NCBI RefSeq assembly: GCF_000426765.1
Contig: NZ_KE384566.1
Location: 124,001-188,000 of the forward strand
DNA: 64,000 nucleotides
Reading direction: 5' to 3'
From: Vibrio litoralis DSM 17657
GTDB lineage: Bacteria > Pseudomonadota > Gammaproteobacteria > Enterobacterales > Vibrionaceae
Below, piece after piece: positions 5,652 through 60,962 of this stretch (position 1 is the first letter of the stretch; each line of letters begins with the position of its first letter). Both the position numbers and the translations under genes were made by a program. The notes below the pieces were generated by a model. That model worked only from the letters and a program-made list of their open reading frames with translations. It was not told where the DNA came from and did no database searches.

Positions 5652-5779
5652 TATACCCGTCGTACTTGAAGCTACAGTTTTGTTGTCGGCGTTCATTCGC
5701 CCCAATCGAATAGACAAGCTATGCTCATGGGGTCTCATTCACTTGTCGCCTCACTGTAACTTCAATTACTTAGGATATA
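5652..5779. repeat. ERIC element 1
   Basis: A 128-bp imperfect palindrome beginning TATACCCGTCGTACTTGAAG and ending AACTTCAATTACTTAGGATA. Read on the minus strand it follows the ERIC consensus: a GTGA start, a CCCCA...TGGGG central stem, CAACAAA, then CTTCAAG and GGGTATA. It begins exactly at the stop of the DUF3622-like gene. It has no coding content. Confidence 0.85.
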
Positions 5780-8451: not shown

Positions 8452-8577
8452 ATATCCTTCGTACTTGAAGCCGCAGCTTTGTTGACGGTGTTGCGGTCAA
8501 TCGAATCAGCAAGCTATGCTAGCGGGGACTCATTTATTTGTCGTCTATCTACTACTCCAATTAATTTGAGTATATAT
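8452..8577. repeat. ERIC element 2
   Basis: About 126 bp starting ATATCCTTCGTACTTGAAG and ending near GAGTATATA. It shares the ERIC layout with the copies at 5652 and 20973 but is the most diverged, particularly in the right arm. It begins three bases after the stop of the GreA/GreB-like gene. Confidence 0.8.
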
Positions 8578-20972: not shown

Positions 20973-21099
20973 TATATCCTTCGTACTTGAAGTTGCAGCT
21001 TTGTTGACGGCGTTCATTCCCCCCAATCACATAGGCGAGCTATGCTCATGGGGGCTCATTCACTTGTCGCCTCACTGCAACTCCAATTACTTTGGATAC
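20973..21099. repeat. ERIC element 3, within the met operon
   Basis: 127 bp starting TATATCCTTCGTACTTGAAG and ending near TTTGGATAC. It is the closest of the three copies to the ERIC consensus, including the CCCCAATCACATAGGCGAGC central part and the CATGGGGG stem arm. It lies between metI and metQ, so it would be transcribed in the metNIQ mRNA and fold into a long hairpin. Confidence 0.88.
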
Positions 21100-26001: not shown

Positions 26002-27852
26002 ATGATAAAACCGACTAAATTACGCTCATTATGGTTGTGTGGAATATCATTAACTGTGGCGTTTTCCAGTAGTTTCGCTCATGCCGCGCAATTGCCAGAC
26101 AACTTAGATTGGCAGACTAATAATAACGATCCTATTTTTGCCTCACCCGAAGCTAAGTTTGGTGGTATTTATCACACCTACATGGCGAGCTTTCCTCAAA
26201 CTTTCCGTACTGTCGGCCCTGATGCTAATGGTGGTTTTGCTTCTTGGACACGTTCCACGATGGCGCTGCTAGATAGGCACCCTAATACTGATAATTGGCT
26301 ACCATCGATTGCCACTTCTTGGGCATTTTCCGATGATCATAAAACGGTTTATTTCAAGCTTGATCCCAAAGCAAAATGGAGCGATGGCAAACCAGTTACC
26401 GCCAAAGACTTCACCTTTATTTTGCAAATGATGCGCTCGAAAGATATCGTCGCGCCGTGGTACAACGACTTTTACACCAATGAAGTCAGTGATGTGATTG
26501 CTTATGATGATCACACTATCGCAGTGGTTTCCGGTAAACCAAGAAATCCCGATGAGTTGATGGATTATGTCAACCTGTCACCAATTCCTGCTCATTTTTA
26601 TGCTAACCCTCGTAAAGATGAAAATGGCGATGGCATTGCAGATGATTTTGTCCGTCGTTATAACTTTAAGCCGCAGCCAACCGTAGGCCCGTATCACATT
26701 AATGATATTGATAAAGGCAAAGCGGTTAGCTTTAAGCATGTGAAAGACTGGTGGGGCTACAGTAATAAGTACTATCAACATCGTTTTAATGTTGAAAAAA
26801 TCAGTATCAAGGTGATTCGAGATCCGGATATTGCGTTTAAGTATTTTGAAAAAGGTCAGCTAGACTCATTTGCTTTGGTGCGTCCTACTCTTTGGCATGA
26901 TAAAGCGGTTGGCGAAAATTACGATAAAGGCTATATCCATAAAGCGTGGGCATTTAACCAAGCGCCAGTAGGAGCTGGAGGCATTTGGTTGAATACCGCG
27001 ATGCCACTGCTAGATGATATCAATGTACGTCAGGGTTTAATGCATGCGATGGATTATGACGGCATGTTGGATAAAATTCTGCGTAACGATTATGTTCGTA
27101 AAAATAATCCAATGGGCAGCGGGCATGGCGACTATGATCAGCCGGATATTACTGCGCCTAAATTTGATCCTAAATTAGCGGCTTCGTTCTTTGAAAAAGC
27201 CGGCTTTACCCAAATTGGCCCAGATGGCATCCGCCAAAATGATAAAGGTCAGCGACTTAGCTTTGCTGTGACCTACGCCACGCCAGCGCATACTCCGCGC
27301 ATTGCTTATTTACGTGAGCAAGCCAAATTGGCCGGTCTGGACTTAACGCTTAATCTGATCGATGGTTCCAGCATGTTTAAGTATGTGCTTGAGAAAAAAC
27401 ATCAATTGTCATTTCATGATATGTCAGCCTCACGTATTCCGGTGTACTGGCAGTATTTCTCCTCTGAATTTGCCAATAAACCACAAAACAATAACTTCAC
27501 TAACTACAGCTCACCTGAACTGGATAAGTTAATTGAGTCTTATCGTAATGAATTTGATTTAACCAATAAGCATCAACTATCTCGTCAAATCCAACAGAAA
27601 GTGTATGAGGCCAAAGTGGTGATCCCAGGCTACAGCGTTCCTTATGTGCGTGAAGGGTACTGGCGTTGGATGAAGTTGCCAAAAGAGATGGCGACTAAAC
27701 AAACTGAGGCATTATTTTATCCTTCAGGTTTTGTTGGCAGTTTAGGTACTTTTTGGATCGATCAAGACGCGAAAAAAGAAACCAAAGACGCGATGGATTC
27801 AGGTAAAGCGTTTGAGCCAGTGACGATAAAGGATGAAAGCTTTAGACCCTAG
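26002..27852 (+). CDS. yejA: Periplasmic substrate-binding protein, YejA-like
   Basis: A 616-residue family 5 (DppA-type) solute-binding protein with a signal peptide cleaved after FAHAAQ. It carries typical segments (YFKLDPKAKWSDGKPVTAKDFTFILQMM, VRQGLMHAMDYDGML, GFVGSLGTFWIDQ). Its place between yejE and the ATPase genes and its size suggest YejA. AAGGAAAAAC precedes the ATG. The last residues RP and the TAG stop lie inside the first copy of an AGACCCT heptamer array, so the 3' end of the gene appears to have been reshaped by the repeat. Confidence 0.83.
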   Translation: MIKPTKLRSLWLCGISLTVAFSSSFAHAAQLPDNLDWQTNNNDPIFASPEAKFGGIYHTYMASFPQTFRTVGPDANGGFASWTRSTMALLDRHPNTDNWLPSIATSWAFSDDHKTVYFKLDPKAKWSDGKPVTAKDFTFILQMMRSKDIVAPWYNDFYTNEVSDVIAYDDHTIAVVSGKPRNPDELMDYVNLSPIPAHFYANPRKDENGDGIADDFVRRYNFKPQPTVGPYHINDIDKGKAVSFKHVKDWWGYSNKYYQHRFNVEKISIKVIRDPDIAFKYFEKGQLDSFALVRPTLWHDKAVGENYDKGYIHKAWAFNQAPVGAGGIWLNTAMPLLDDINVRQGLMHAMDYDGMLDKILRNDYVRKNNPMGSGHGDYDQPDITAPKFDPKLAASFFEKAGFTQIGPDGIRQNDKGQRLSFAVTYATPAHTPRIAYLREQAKLAGLDLTLNLIDGSSMFKYVLEKKHQLSFHDMSASRIPVYWQYFSSEFANKPQNNNFTNYSSPELDKLIESYRNEFDLTNKHQLSRQIQQKVYEAKVVIPGYSVPYVREGYWRWMKLPKEMATKQTEALFYPSGFVGSLGTFWIDQDAKKETKDAMDSGKAFEPVTIKDESFRP

Positions 27853-27887
27853 ACCCTAGACCCTAGACCCTAGTTCCTAGAGGGTAG
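27844..27887. repeat. AGACCCT heptamer array overlapping the yejA stop
   Basis: Four perfect AGACCCT units (27844-27871), then AGTTCCT and AGAGGGTAG. ACCCT and AGGGT around AGTTCCTAG can form a hairpin. The yejA TAG stop spans the first unit boundary. Confidence 0.9.
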
Positions 27888-27958: not shown

Positions 27959-28014
27959 CCAGGAACCAGGAACCAGGAACCAGGAACCAGGAACCAGGAA
28001 CCAGGAACCAGGAA
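27959..28014. repeat. CCAGGAA heptamer array, eight copies
   Basis: Eight perfect CCAGGAA copies in tandem, 25 bp before the start of the first ATPase gene and 71 bp after the preceding AGACCCT array. A perfect 56-bp array should be prone to slippage, changing the spacing inside the operon. Confidence 0.95.
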
Positions 28015-28039
28015 CTGATAAGCTTAAAATAGGCACCTA

Positions 28040-29068: not shown

Positions 29069-30066
29069 GTGAGTTAGTTAGGATTAAAAATCTTAAGCAG
29101 TACTTTCATTCAGCAAAAGGCTTACTGAAAAAAGGCTATACCGTTCATGCGGTTGACGATGTTTCTTTAGTGGTCAATAAAGGTGAAACCTTAGGCATCG
29201 TTGGCGAATCTGGTTGTGGAAAAAGTACCCTAGGTCGTAGTTTATTGCGATTATATGAACCGACTAGTGGGCAAATCTTGTTTGAAGGGCAAGATATTTG
29301 TCAACTTGATAACAAGGCGATGCGTTCTTTACGCCAAGAAATGCAGATGGTGTTTCAAGATCCTACTGAATCATTAAACTCTCGCCATACTGTAGGGATG
29401 ATTTTGCAAGAGCCATTTGTGATCCATAAGTTGGGTAGTGAAGCGGAAAGAAAACAATGGGTATCAGAGTTGCTGGTAAAAGTAGGCTTAACGCCAGATG
29501 CAGCTGAACGTTACCCGCATGAGTTTTCTGGAGGGCAGAAGCAGCGAATTGGTATTGCACGCGCGATTGCATTAAAGCCGAAGTTAGTGGTGTGTGATGA
29601 GTCGGTATCTGCATTAGATGTTTCGGTTCAAGCGCAAATACTAAACCTGCTGCTTGAGTTGCAAAAAGAAATGGATTTGACGTTAATTTTTATCGCTCAC
29701 GATTTATCGGTAATTCGTCATATTTCCGATAAAATTGCTGTGATGTACCTCGGTCAAATTGTCGAATATGGCGAGGCGCAGCAGGTTTATCAGCACCCGA
29801 AACATCCGTATACCCAATCTTTATTATCGGCAATTCCCATAACTCACCCTAAATACAGAAATGCCAAACTTAGGCTGGAAGAGCAAGGCATTGGTGAGCG
29901 AATTTTATTAAAAGGGGACATTCCATCACCAATTGACAGGCCTAAAGGTTGCCGCTTTGCTTCACGTTGCCCTAAAGTCATGCCAAAATGTCAACAACAA
30001 CCTGTTTTGATGGAAGATAAAAATTCACATCATTCTGTTTCGTGTTTTTTATATATACCCAAGTAA
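29065..30066 (+). CDS. Peptide ABC importer ATPase, DppF/OppF type
   Basis: A 333-residue ATPase, partner of the preceding one. Walker A is GESGCGKS (about 45-52), the signature [16 protein letters not shown], Walker [19 protein letters not shown], and the switch His FIAHDLSV. The C-terminal region has [14 protein letters not shown] and SVSCFLY. The last codons (I-P-K-stop) are read from the terminus of a 267-bp repeat inserted at 30054, so the natural C-terminus was probably changed. Last gene of the importer unit; no clear terminator is seen other than the repeat itself. Confidence 0.9.
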
Positions 30067-30320
30067 CTTCAAGATGCGAGTTTCAGCAAGAATAAAACAA
30101 GCTTTAGGCAAGACAAATTGAATATGATCATAGTTATTCTATCTCTGTTCAATTTAACGTAGCATAAAGCTTGTTTTAACTTGCCCTTCGGGAGCTTCAT
30201 TCAAACCTTTATGCCGCGTCAGATTGGTTTGAAAGGTGCCTACATTCCTTCGCCAATCTTCCTTGCCTAAAAGTTTGGATGATAGCTCTGAATTCTGTAT
30301 CTTGAAGTCACTTGGGTATA
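30054..30320. mobile_element. 267-bp terminal-inverted-repeat element, copy 1
   Basis: Begins TATACCCAAGTAACTTCAAG and ends CTTGAAGTCACTTGGGTATA, an inverted repeat of about 24 bp. Internal stems include AAACAAGCTTTA/TAAAGCTTGTTT and a TTGGCGAAGG region. It has no reading frame of note, so it is MITE-like and would need a transposase in trans. It is the same length as the copy at 33581 and differs at about 16 positions by eye. It overlaps the 3' end of the upstream ATPase gene. Confidence 0.8.
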
Positions 30321-33580: not shown

Positions 33581-33847
33581 TATACCCAAGTAACCTCAAG
33601 ATGCAAGTTTCAGCAAGAATAAAACAAGCTTTAGGCAAGGCAAATTGAGTATGATCATAGTTATTCTATCTCTGTTCAATTTAACGCTGCATAAAGCTTG
33701 TTTTAACTTGCCCTTCGGGAGCTTCATCCAAACCTTTATACAGCGTCAGATTGGTTTGAAAGGTGCTTACATTCCTTCGCCAATCTTCCTTGCCTAAAGG
33801 TCTGGATGATAGCTCTGAATTCTGCATCTTGAGGTCACTTGGGTATA
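33581..33847. mobile_element. 267-bp terminal-inverted-repeat element, copy 2
   Basis: Same length and layout as the element at 30054, with TATACCCAAGTAAC and GTCACTTGGGTATA ends. It differs from copy 1 at scattered positions, some of which compensate within stems. It lies between the lipoprotein gene and nrdR, with no reading frame. Short remnants of the same ends occur at 7912, 12076 and 54721. Confidence 0.8.
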
Positions 33848-33996
33848 CGTAAGTGTAACCTTATCGCAAACTTTGCTCAACTTAGGGATAAAATTTATTC
33901 GATAATGACGATCAAGCCTAGGTGTGCAGTCGCTAAGCCTAGTTATTTCGGATAAACTAAAGCGATAAAATACGACTCTGACTCGAGGGAGAGAGG

Positions 33997-37495: not shown

Positions 37496-37575
37496 CGTTT
37501 TTCGGGAGCTCGTTACTCGTTGCTTGAAAAAGCTTTTATTCGAGTCACGAGCTTCCGAGCAACGAGAAACGAATT
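37490..37575. repeat. Inverted heptamer-family element after the ribBX stop
   Basis: CGTTACTCGTTGCT (37511-37524) and AGCAACGAGAAACG (37558-37571) pair with one mismatch in 14. The stop region GAGTAACG can also pair with CGTTACTC. The arms contain the same CAACGAG heptamer that forms the array at 57295. It lies between ribBX and ribH. Confidence 0.75.
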
Positions 37576-37652
37576 ACCAATAGATATCGCTCACAAATTT
37601 GTGGTAGAATCCGCCGATTCTCACTCTCTAGAAAATAGTTAAAGGATAACTT

Positions 37653-49981: not shown

Positions 49982-50035
49982 CTCGAAACTCGAAACTCGA
50001 AACTCGAAACTCGAAACCAGGAACTAGGAACCTAG
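49982..50035. repeat. Mixed heptamer array (CTCGAAA, CCAGGAA, CTAGGAA) at the xni 3' end
   Basis: Five perfect CTCGAAA units (49982-50016) continue in register into CCAGGAA and CTAGGAA, ending CCTAG. The array therefore links the CTCGAAA and CCAGGAA types in one repeat family. The TAG stop of xni (minus strand, 50024-50026) lies inside the CTAGGAA unit. Confidence 0.93.
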
Positions 50036-50794
50036 ATATCTCACATCCTGCAAATTAAACCCTAGCTTCATATCCGTCTGTAACGCTGCAATTTTTTTGC
50101 AGGTGCGTGCTAATTCAATATGCTCATCAAACTTTTTACGATATTTAGGCACTAAGTCTTCTGCGGCATAAGCCGTTTCTATATCGCCATATTGCCGCAA
50201 TATTTCTTTCGCTGCTTTCGGTCCAATACCAGGAATACCGGGAACCTTGCTTGAGCTAATTCCAACTAATCCCCAGTAATCGTCAAGTTGTTCTGGTTTG
50301 ACGCCAAATTCTTGCTCGATAAATGGTGCATCTAGCCAGCGATGTTGGAAATAATCGCGAATCTGAATATTGGGTGAGAGTAGTTGGCAGTAGCCTTTAT
50401 CGGTTGAGATGATGGTGGCTTTCTCGCCTGCCGATGCGACCTTGTATGCAAGTGTTGCCACTAAGTCATCAGCTTCATCGCCATCGGAAAGTAATGAATC
50501 TATGCCAAGCTCCCACCAAGCTGATTGGATCTTTTCTAAGCCAGTAAGAAGCGGTGCGGGCATGGGTTTACGGTCTTCTTTATAGCTAGGTAGAACTTGT
50601 GCTCGCCAACCTCGGTCTTGCAGATGATGATCAAATACCGCAATGATATGAGTCGGTTGTGATTCAGCCAGAATCTTATTGATGGTTCGGCTGGTGGTAG
50701 TGATGGTACGGTCAATGTCGTTGGCATCAGGTTGCGCGGAGTGCACTCGACGGATCAGGTTGAGGGCATCGATGATCACCAAGTGAATTGACAT
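50024..50794 (-). CDS. xni: Flap endonuclease Xni (ExoIX)
   Basis: A 256-residue protein of the FEN/5'-3' exonuclease family, acting on flapped DNA. Seen: HLVIIDALNLIRRVH, the EADDLVATLAYKV metal-site segment, STDKGYCQLLSPNIQIRDYF, and the helix-hairpin-helix GISSSKVPGIPGIGPKAAKEIL. The ATG at 50794 (MSIHLVIIDA) is preferred to one 5 codons upstream. The last residues, LGS and stop, come from a heptamer array, so the natural C-terminus seems to have been replaced. A terminator for ppnN lies just upstream. Confidence 0.94.
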   Translation of the reverse strand: MSIHLVIIDALNLIRRVHSAQPDANDIDRTITTTSRTINKILAESQPTHIIAVFDHHLQDRGWRAQVLPSYKEDRKPMPAPLLTGLEKIQSAWWELGIDSLLSDGDEADDLVATLAYKVASAGEKATIISTDKGYCQLLSPNIQIRDYFQHRWLDAPFIEQEFGVKPEQLDDYWGLVGISSSKVPGIPGIGPKAAKEILRQYGDIETAYAAEDLVPKYRKKFDEHIELARTCKKIAALQTDMKLGFNLQDVRYLGS

Positions 50795-57143: not shown

Positions 57144-57294
57144 TTATTAGACGGCGCTTAGACATGAGGGCCGATGGAGTCGTTGCTCGTGACTAGGGCG
57201 CTTTGCTACTCGTAACTCGGGGAAGGTGCTATAAATTTAGTGTAATAAAATAGAAATGAACTCGCTTTATATTTTTCAAGGAACTGAAATCTTT

Positions 57295-57336
57295 CAACGA
57301 GCAACGAGCAACGAGCAACGAGCAACGAGCAACGAG
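57295..57336. repeat. CAACGAG heptamer array, six copies
   Basis: Six perfect CAACGAG units. An inverted match (CGTTGCTCGT) lies upstream at about 57181-57190, so the region between could fold as a long hairpin. The downstream flank, AGCTACGAGTTCC, carries the TAG stop of yaiI (57353-57355, minus). Confidence 0.93.
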
Positions 57337-57352
57337 AAGCGCAGCGGCCGAG

Positions 57353-57805
57353 CTACGAGTTCCGGCCTTTCGCCAATATCCGATCCAAATGATTAGCAAA
57401 TTCACGCTTATCGGTTTGGGAGAGTGGCGGCGGACCTCCGCTTTGAACACCACTTGAACGCATGGTATCCATAAAATCACGAATATTCAGACGAGCTTTG
57501 ATGGTGTCTTTGGTATAAAGCTCACCGCGCGAGCTTAATGCTTGGCCGCCTTTGGTGATCACTTCATCGGCGAGAGGGATGTCTGAGGTGATCACGAGAT
57601 CGCCGACTTCGACACGACGTACGATTTCATTATCCGCAATATCAAAACCACTTTCGACTTGTACGCTGTGAATATTATTGCGCTTCGGGACGGGCACTAA
57701 GTGGTTGGCAATAAAAGTTGTAGTAATGCCGGTGCGTTCTGCCGCGCGACAGATGGTTTCTCTGATGGTTTTCGGACACGCGTCAGCATCAACCCAAATT
57801 TTCAT
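57353..57805 (-). CDS. yaiI: UPF0178 family protein YaiI
   Basis: A 150-residue protein of the DUF188 family (PIN-like fold). Seen: [58 protein letters not shown], and the late [22 protein letters not shown]. The conserved aspartates suggest a nuclease-like metal site; activity is unknown. The terminal residues RNS and the stop come from the repeat flank. Two bases separate it from the next minus-strand gene. Confidence 0.9.
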
Positions 57806-59962: not shown

Positions 59963-60747
59963 ATGTAGAAAATAACCCTGAGTTGATGGATGACTCGCAA
60001 GAATCTGCTGTTGAAACTGTAGAGTTAGAAGTGGTTTATCGTGACGAGTATTTTATCGCGGTCAATAAGCCAGCTGGAATGCTAGTGCACCGATCGTGGC
60101 TTGATCGCCATGAGACGCAATTTGTGATGCAAACCTTGAGAGATCAAATTGGTCAGCATGTTTTTCCTTTGCATCGACTCGATCGCCCAACCTCTGGTGT
60201 ACTACTGTTCGCACTATCGAGTGAGTTTGCCGCAAAAGCAGCGCCAATGTTTGCCGAACATCAATTCACCAAAACTTATCATGCCATTGTACGCGGTTGG
60301 ATTGAAGAGGGCGATCGTCTCGATTACCCACTGAAAAAAGAGCAAGACAAAATCGCCGATAAGTTTGCCTCAAAAGAGGTGGAAGCTCAGTCTGCAATTA
60401 CTGACTACCAACCATTAGCTAAAGTAGAAGTTCCCCATTCAACAGGCCGCTTTCCAACCAGTCGTTTTTGTCTAGTTGAAATGCAACCACTAACCGGACG
60501 CAAACACCAATTACGTCGTCATATGGCGCACCTACGTCATCCGATATTAGGGGATACTTCTCATGGTGACGGTAAACAAAACCGTTTATTTAGATATGTT
60601 TATGATGCAAAGCGTTTAATGCTACATGCGAGTAAACTGGAGTTTGTGCATCCATACACGAATGAGAATATCGTCATTGAAGCGAAGTTTGATGAAGTGT
60701 GGCAACGTTTATTGAAAGAGTTTGGTTGGAAGAGCGGTTTCGAGTAG
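59959..60747 (+). CDS. truC: tRNA pseudouridine(65) synthase
   Basis: A 262-residue RluA-family synthase making pseudouridine 65 in tRNAs. The catalytic Asp is in HRLDRPTSGVLLFAL. Other family parts: VYRDEYFIAVNKPAGMLVHRSWLD, TYHAIVRGWI, VEMQPLTGRKHQLRRHMAHLRHPILGD and RLMLHASKLEF. The start overlaps yqcC. The last codons (GGT TTC GAG TAG) are part of a TTTCGAG-type heptamer run, so the C-terminus seems repeat-derived. Confidence 0.95.
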   Translation: MNVENNPELMDDSQESAVETVELEVVYRDEYFIAVNKPAGMLVHRSWLDRHETQFVMQTLRDQIGQHVFPLHRLDRPTSGVLLFALSSEFAAKAAPMFAEHQFTKTYHAIVRGWIEEGDRLDYPLKKEQDKIADKFASKEVEAQSAITDYQPLAKVEVPHSTGRFPTSRFCLVEMQPLTGRKHQLRRHMAHLRHPILGDTSHGDGKQNRLFRYVYDAKRLMLHASKLEFVHPYTNENIVIEAKFDEVWQRLLKEFGWKSGFE

Positions 60748-60766
60748 TGTGTTTCGAGTTTCGAGT
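60737..60766. repeat. TTTCGAG heptamer run at the truC stop
   Basis: GTTTCGAGTAG at the truC end is followed by GTTTCGAGTTTCGAGTAA. TTTCGAG is the complement of CTCGAAA, the unit at 49982. The truC TAG stop lies within it. Confidence 0.75.
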
Positions 60767-60830
60767 AAAAAAGAGTATCGGTGCGCGAGTCTCGGGCGTT
60801 TCACTTCCGTAACTCGCAAAAGCGCAGTCC

Positions 60831-60962
60831 TCAATATATTAAACCGGGCTCATCCTGAAAAGCGACGTAGGAGCGCAGTTCAGGATCTCCCACATCATTT
60901 GAGACTCTATGTGTGGCAGGAGATTCCGTATCTTCTTCGCTTAGGCTCATGTACGGAATGAC
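60831..60962. repeat. Palindromic unit with three consecutive stems
   Basis: Three inverted pairs in a row: ATCCTGAA/TTCAGGAT, CCACA/TGTGG and ATTCCGTA/TACGGAAT. Loops contain GCGACGTAGGAGCGC and CTTCTTCGCTTAGG. It has no coding content. It resembles the intergenic palindromic repeats of marine gammaproteobacteria, but I do not know a name. Confidence 0.6.

Follow-up and report, generated by a model that had tools for sequence, protein, structure and literature searches.

Repetitive extragenic palindromic (REP) sequences and bacterial interspersed mosaic elements (BIMEs), which are associated with a RAYT transposase, are short palindromic extragenic repeats found at gene 3' ends, sometimes in tandem clusters. 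The present study concerns repeats of a different build in Vibrio litoralis DSM 17657. They were examined in a stretch of 64,000 nucleotides (contig NZ_KE384566.1, positions 124,001 to 188,000, hereafter the window) and comprise a dispersed, non-coding intergenic element, here called the CTCG element, together with exact tandem arrays of seven-base units that often lie beside stop codons. A sequence-only reading of the window had drawn attention to five genes whose ends meet repeats, namely yejA, a second ABC ATPase gene, xni, yaiI and truC; these gene names are taken over from that reading without a family search.

Heptamer repeats are already known from the vicinity of stop codons. Those of Xanthomonas and Nostoc, GGGAATC and GGGGA(C/T)T, lie near or overlap stops on the coding strand and mostly occupy matching intergenic positions in a pair of related species, with variable length and sequence, according to the available text of that report (PMC4692102). 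In the Beggiatoaceae, TAACTGA direct repeats form intergenic heptamer arrays that overlap 13 upstream stops; the accessible sections of the same study rank heptanucleotides as the commonest category in most genomes and propose slippage (PMC4679880). Enterobacterial RU-1 and RU-2 are described, in the part of the source available, as small dispersed intergenic mobile repeats with units of 127 and 168 bp, and RU-1 in single cases replaces an old stop and so provides a new protein C-terminus (PMC2759123). Lastly, the available excerpt of a further report lists a variable-number tandem repeat in Vibrio cholerae, VC0437, with the motif gacccta (PMC6905556).

The Vibrio repeats resemble the heptamers of Xanthomonas and Nostoc in that arrays and sense arms of the CTCG element also lie close to, or overlap, stops on the coding strand; antisense arms exist too. 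As far as the published sections extend, the former follow a single G-rich, quadruplex-forming consensus per group (PMC4692102), whereas the Vibrio unit varies. GGG or CCC is present in 4 of the 40 listed array units (TAGACCC, GGTCTCG, TCGGGTC and CCCAGCA), which might form a quadruplex, and is missing from the other 36; none of the 40 is GGGAATC or GGGGA(C/T)T. A further difference is that the Vibrio arrays are tied to a dispersed element that has a linker of 9 nt and forms inverted pairs pointing inward. The arrays that carry GGG or CCC lie at 27843-27873 of the window, at C2:292817-292931 and C5:118007-118058 of the same genome, and at L088:13148-13240.

The other systems diverge in different ways. 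The Beggiatoaceae repeats have a fixed unit and, in the sections available, occur particularly just upstream of starts (PMC4679880), whereas the Vibrio repeats occur mostly just downstream of stops. As in heptanucleotide simple-sequence repeats generally, there is an excess of the 7-nt period, and copy number differs between close relatives. A TA-flanked insert of the window behaves like RU-1, bringing a new stop and C-terminus, while neither a heptad build nor a systematic position beside stops is described for RU-1 and RU-2 in the available part of the source (PMC2759123). The V. cholerae motif gacccta is the unit of the yejA array, TAGACCC, in rotation, a likeness between different species by motif alone, within the excerpt that reports it (PMC6905556). 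In contrast to REP and BIME systems, the V. litoralis genome lacks a Y1 transposase, and the arms of the CTCG element do not co-vary. No published description of the element was found in the open-licence literature, which was surveyed in part. Stop-hugging heptamers have been described already, in Xanthomonas and Nostoc; the Vibrio CTCG family was not found in print. Its arrangement probably reflects a turnover of neutral spacer DNA that is driven by the repeats and confined by selected stops and terminators, and slippage probably produces the exact arrays.

The CTCG element and its seven-base arrays

The CTCG element is approximately 45 nt long and has the consensus CG-NNN-CTCGTNN-CTMGGGC-GCTNCGCTN-CTCGTNN-CTCGAAA-AAG, obtained by motif search and by a profile built from 26 seeds. 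Within spacers, the distances from one CTCG to another peak at 7, 14, 21 and 28, and again at 16, 23 and 30; the element is thus composed of heptads and a fixed 9-nt linker (GCTNCGCTN). Copies often form inverted pairs, of which 24 point inward and none outward, and single arms occur too.

Counted at E < 0.02, there are 51 copies in 1.264 Mb of the V. litoralis genome, about a third of its 3.82 Mb, sampled as blocks and not at random. Two related genomes hold 21 copies in 500 kb (G014) and 12 copies in 229 kb (G041); blocks of the window align with G041 mostly at 92-95% identity (range 80-95%) and with G014 at 74-87%. Among named records the nearest is Vibrio sp. CK2-1, with 100% identity in the protein used as query. 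A single copy, in V. rumoiensis, was detected in 79 loci of other Vibrionaceae. At this threshold none lies in a called gene, as judged with a home-made, non-standard hexamer caller, and one match just above it (E 0.032) does. A regular-expression search had placed 11 of its 52 V. litoralis hits in genes; these look like chance matches lacking the linker.

Allowing up to one mismatch, the CTCG pattern is present in 7 of 296 Vibrionaceae genomes (29, 44, 21, 23, 12, 1 and 1 copies) and the reversed control in none. The strict pattern is present in 4 of 295 genomes at the level of the order, all four in the genus of the window. Among the genomes searched, the element is restricted to one clade. 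Phage carriage was considered and rejected, the strict pattern being found in 0 viral contigs; plasmids were not searched. Near-identical CTCG tandem units of ~124 bp in genome G134 (C1:1862701-1864001, locus L236) and of ~118 bp in G014 (C1:1609201-1610301, locus L237) look recently amplified. In several spacers, for example at C2:502249-502623 of V. litoralis, the CTCG arms have heptads of a second family, CTAGGAA/CCAGGAA, on their flanks.

Tandem arrays in the 1.264-Mb sample are dominated by a period of seven bases, seen in 17 of 27 array rows (periods 4-30, array score >=16), where rows of different period may cover one and the same stretch. In the first 464 kb, all 12 arrays with periods of 3-15 have period 7, and a Markov-1 control yielded none. 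The motif CTNG is contained in 15 of 17 array units of V. litoralis, 9 of 11 of G014 and 6 of 10 of other vibrios, compared with 19% of random heptamers. This bias ties the V. litoralis arrays to the dispersed element.

How an array grows can be followed at yaiI, where the number of heptad copies is 6.0 in the window and 8.6 in G041, while the heptad is unexpanded in G014, with the ending CTCGTTACTCGAAAAAG. The yaiI array has expanded in place from the last heptad of the element, and the sequence-only proposal that repeats expand at gene 3' ends is borne out here by orthologues. The other arrays may have arisen by the same route, that is, heptad expansion.

Arrays also gather beside stops. A pooled test of V. 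litoralis, G014 and other vibrios covered 35 arrays, of which 21 are no more than 20 nt away from a stop. The expected number is 10.9, and 21 was reached in 0 of 20,000 simulations in which arrays were slid within present-day spacers. The test leaves out two G041 arrays, because they are orthologous, as well as three located in divergent spacers, where there is no stop to face. The excess is similar with the window left out (18 of 31, 9.6 expected) and is present within 10, 20 and 40 nt. The arrays of other vibrios alone (n = 10) show no excess within 20 nt (4, 3.3 expected), and those touching or overlapping the stop, at distance 0, show no significant one (9, 5.6 expected, p 0.08).

Convergent spacers are rich in arrays (17 of 38, 6.5 expected) and divergent spacers are poor (3 of 38, 9.6 expected). 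This would agree with ordinary simple-sequence slippage in spacers, in which the association with stops stems only from the tolerance of convergent spacers. However, such an origin is very improbable: the CTNG content of the units connects them with a dispersed element whose existence contradicts slippage alone, and the pooled excess near stops persists even though arrays were slid within their own spacers.

Boundaries at stops and terminators

Position was analysed for 72 arms of V. litoralis and G014, comprising 54 sense arms with an upstream sense stop and 18 antisense arms. As many as 25 of the 54 start 0-10 nt past the stop, compared with 3.9 expected when arms are slid within spacers, and seven overlap it; antisense arms lie farther from stops. 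The same is seen in genome G128, where 14 of 30 sense arms start at -15 to +10 nt of the stop (3.1 expected), and in further loci of G041, where 6 of 14 fall in that range (1.2 expected). These loci, and those of G134, were picked for holding the pattern and inform on position only, not on abundance.

Terminator-type T-runs form a second boundary. Of the far sense arms, 22 of 49 are immediately preceded by a T-run, as are 17 of 39 antisense arms; the figure is 6 of 63 for flush arms and 14% for random spacer positions (n = 2673). One spacer has two terminators with arms occupying all the DNA between them. Repeats at gene 3' ends, with stop codons or terminators as possible targets, had been proposed from the sequence alone; the excess of arrays and sense arms beside stops supports the first point, and the T-runs agree with terminators as a further boundary.

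Spacers were compared between relatives over 400 kb of orthologous DNA (C2 of V. litoralis against C8 of G041), with repeats defined as profile arms and exact arrays only, so that spacers classed as lacking them may include some with decayed repeats. Among 235 orthologous spacers, repeats are present in both genomes in 23, in V. litoralis only in 2, in G041 only in 5 and in neither in 205. Median identity is 0.77 for spacers with repeats (30 spacers) and 0.88 for those without (194). Eight differing spacers include two clean differences, of 122 nt and 240 nt, both 5' of unchanged terminators. The former adjoins a CCTAG stop and is flanked by CTAGAAACTAG in G041; the latter has no evident duplication. 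The remaining six look replaced rather than inserted into.

Turnover of spacer DNA probably proceeds as follows. The element and its derivatives, with the CTAG/CCAG heptad family accompanying it in several spacers, would repeatedly insert into and replace the DNA between a stop and a terminator, or between terminators. Selection would retain the coding end and the terminator and, because it keeps those edges, the surviving repeats would be flush with both. Slippage would multiply single heptads into exact seven-base arrays. Since copies reach right to coding ends, a new stop would occasionally come to lie within one, as CGTAGCTCG, CGTAACTCG and CGTGACTCG contain TAG, TAA and TGA, respectively, and it would alter only the last few residues, which are probably free already. 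On this account the element would be mobile, and selection rather than choice of target would set the boundary of the repeat.

A number of observations weigh against such turnover. No transposase or other mover was identified, in a search that covered Y1 transposases only. Arms do not co-vary (0.322 with their own partner and 0.367 with shuffled partners, variable columns, 24 pairs, p 0.98), and maintained hairpins therefore do not account for the inverted pairs. Support for position from G134 is weak (3 of 11, 0.9 expected, p 0.048). Terminator-like sites separate the stop from the arm at just 16 of 36 far arms and come after just 21 of 63 flush arms, and the spacers in which the null model slides arms had already been lengthened by the element. 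The peak at 0-10 nt is sharper than tolerance anywhere in the spacer predicts. TAG stops are also enriched next to arms (12 of 34, compared with 253 of 1402; Fisher p 0.02), which could hint at an insertion target.

The last two observations are those that a mobile element would produce if its insertion machinery preferred gene 3' ends, recognising stop-codon or CTAG-like sites, or AT-rich stop and terminator tracts, and landing just 3' of them. Recurrence of the sharp peak in G128, the T-runs as a second boundary, the clean 122-nt difference beside a CCTAG stop with its CTAGAAACTAG flanks, and the tandem units of G014 and G134 all fit this possibility. Targeted insertion is nevertheless unlikely. 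A RAYT mover was sought and rejected, with 0 matches to PF01797 in the V. litoralis genome, whereas the control gave matches in 5 of 14 genomes (the search did not extend to other transposases). No constant target-site duplication was found across the eight differing spacers, six of which look replaced, and so do those of yejA and xni. It is likewise quite doubtful that a mobile repeat with a mover of its own targets gene ends, recognising stop-codon/CTAG sites and terminator T-tracts and inserting flush with them, its stop-bearing heptads (CGTAG, CGTAA, CGTGA) insuring each insertion against read-through. If this were true, the repeat would be a self-limiting parasite, remodelling 3' ends throughout the genome.

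Sense arms lie close behind stops and are presumably transcribed, as would suit a selected RNA signal in the 3' untranslated region, such as a binding site or an aid to stability or termination, that is required after the stop. This is improbable, given that co-oriented spacers of V. litoralis hold nearly equal numbers of antisense and sense arms (14 and 13), and arm orientation alone is therefore not selected. In addition, arms show neither co-variation nor preferential pairing with their own partner, and the element is lost or replaced between sister species. The maintained hairpin was also rejected on the complementarity of arms to their own downstream sequence, which averages 8.5, compared with 9.5 for other arms; some short CTCG copies pair by eye. 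Repeat-driven turnover, bounded by selection at stops and terminators, remains the probable reading.

Gene ends and other repeats of the window

According to the sequence-only reading, several proteins take their stop codon and final residues from repeats. As a general rule this is not supported. In the 400-kb comparison, the last five residues and the stop are identical at 33 of 42 gene ends that face repeats and at 146 of 192 others (Fisher p 0.84), and overlap with a stop is confined to the seven of 54 sense arms noted above. Because C-termini that face repeats are as constant as the rest, and spacers can be exchanged while the stop stays, a stop supplied by a repeat is the exception. Real exceptions occur at yaiI and at the two convergent genes of C7:86543-86825, as well as at xni in V. 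rumoiensis and G014. It has also been suggested that repeats are kept because they offer benign new protein ends and stops. The seven overlapping arms, together with yaiI, yejA, truC and the xni genes just named, lend themselves to this idea, but it is exceedingly improbable in view of the constancy of C-termini and of the array units themselves: of the 23 arrays no farther than 20 nt from a stop, 9 have a unit with a stop triplet on the gene strand (39%, compared with 31% for random units).

Among the five genes singled out from the sequence (Table 1), seven-base repeats do stand at or in the stops of yejA, xni, yaiI and truC. The stop of the second ABC ATPase does not lie within such a repeat but in an unrelated insert resembling a miniature inverted-repeat transposable element (MITE), and the five loci thus combine two unrelated kinds of repeat. 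The end of yejA is one residue longer here than in G041 and G014 (SFRP*, compared with KYR* and KYK*), where CTCG arms take the place of the TAGACCC array. The spacers of yejA and xni look replaced between relatives rather than inserted into. Orthologues of xni (80 rows, one of them incomplete) share a conserved core to approximately LQD(I/L/V)R, beyond which the tail varies in length and sequence; tails are alike among close relatives. The truC protein ends in FE* both here, with three TTTCGAG and TAG, and in G041, with one TTTCGAG and then TAA. That of yaiI ends in RNS* here, in G041 and in G014, and in AK* in V. rumoiensis, V. hibernica and S17_S38; its stop lies 16 nt from the exact CTCGTTG array, inside the degenerate parent element. 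Last residues are variable in truC (13 orthologue rows) and yaiI (9 rows). The gene upstream of the inward partner arm at yaiI is presumably queF.

Compared with relatives, the five ends are shifted by approximately 0-3 codons, in tails that are free in any case. The sequence-only reading was to be refuted if orthologues without the repeat had the same last residues and stops. The outcome is mixed: their stops are displaced by no more than a few codons, with residues that usually differ, in tails that are variable anyway.

Table 1. Repeat features of the window, in window coordinates
Position	Strand	Feature
27843..27873	+	(TAGACCC)4.4 array holding the yejA stop TAG (27850-27852)
27959..28015	+	(CCAGGAA)8.1 array, 24 nt 5' of the start of the next gene
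30056..30318		263-bp TA-flanked MITE-like insert, TACCCAAGT...ACTTGGGTA, supplying the ABC ATPase stop (30064-30066)
33581..33852		second MITE-like copy with ends of TACCCAAGT...ACTTGGGTA type, TA-flanked, without counterpart in G041 and G014
37496..37578		short CTCG element of palindromic form, immediately 3' of a stop, kept in G041 and G014
49982..50017	-	(CTCGAAA)5.1 array adjoining the xni stop
50018..50036	-	degenerate CCAGGAA/CTAGGAA units containing the xni stop (50024-50026, minus)
57181..57225	+	inward partner arm; first CTCG 42 nt past the stop of the upstream gene
57295..57336	-	(CTCGTTG)6 array near yaiI, expanded last heptad of the CTCG element
57319..57364	-	CTCG element arm with the last codons and stop of yaiI (57353-57355, minus), AAC TCG TAG
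60736..60766	+	TTTCGAG heptads around the truC stop TAG (60745-60747)
60779..60830	+	weak CTCG element copy 3' of truC, E = 0.02 (at threshold; outside the 51 counted)

The insert at the ABC ATPase has the properties of a MITE, with inverted ends, a TA duplication and an empty site at the same place in G041 and G014. It alters the end of the protein from LYN* to LYIPK*. Of 872 sampled V. litoralis spacers, 70 carry the MITE-like end motif TATACCCA/TGGGTATA, compared with 7.2 expected. A REP-like repeat, CATCCTGAA...TTCAGGATCTC, lies at 60850-60894; its other copies account for 31 of the 33 matches that 60600-60900 has in the genome. Another dispersed repeat, with the core CGTACTTGAAG, has two to three copies in the window (5652-5777, 8452-8492 and 20973-21098).

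Meaning for stop-hugging heptamers

What began as a set of odd gene ends becomes a single object open to testing: a heptad element, specific to one clade, to which the simple seven-base arrays are tied and which lies within a few bases of stops and T-runs. The comparison of 400 kb suggests that such repeats rarely change proteins. For the stop-hugging heptamers of Xanthomonas, Nostoc and Vibrio, the element provides a natural test between targeted insertion, on the one hand, and selection that trims the turnover of spacers, on the other.
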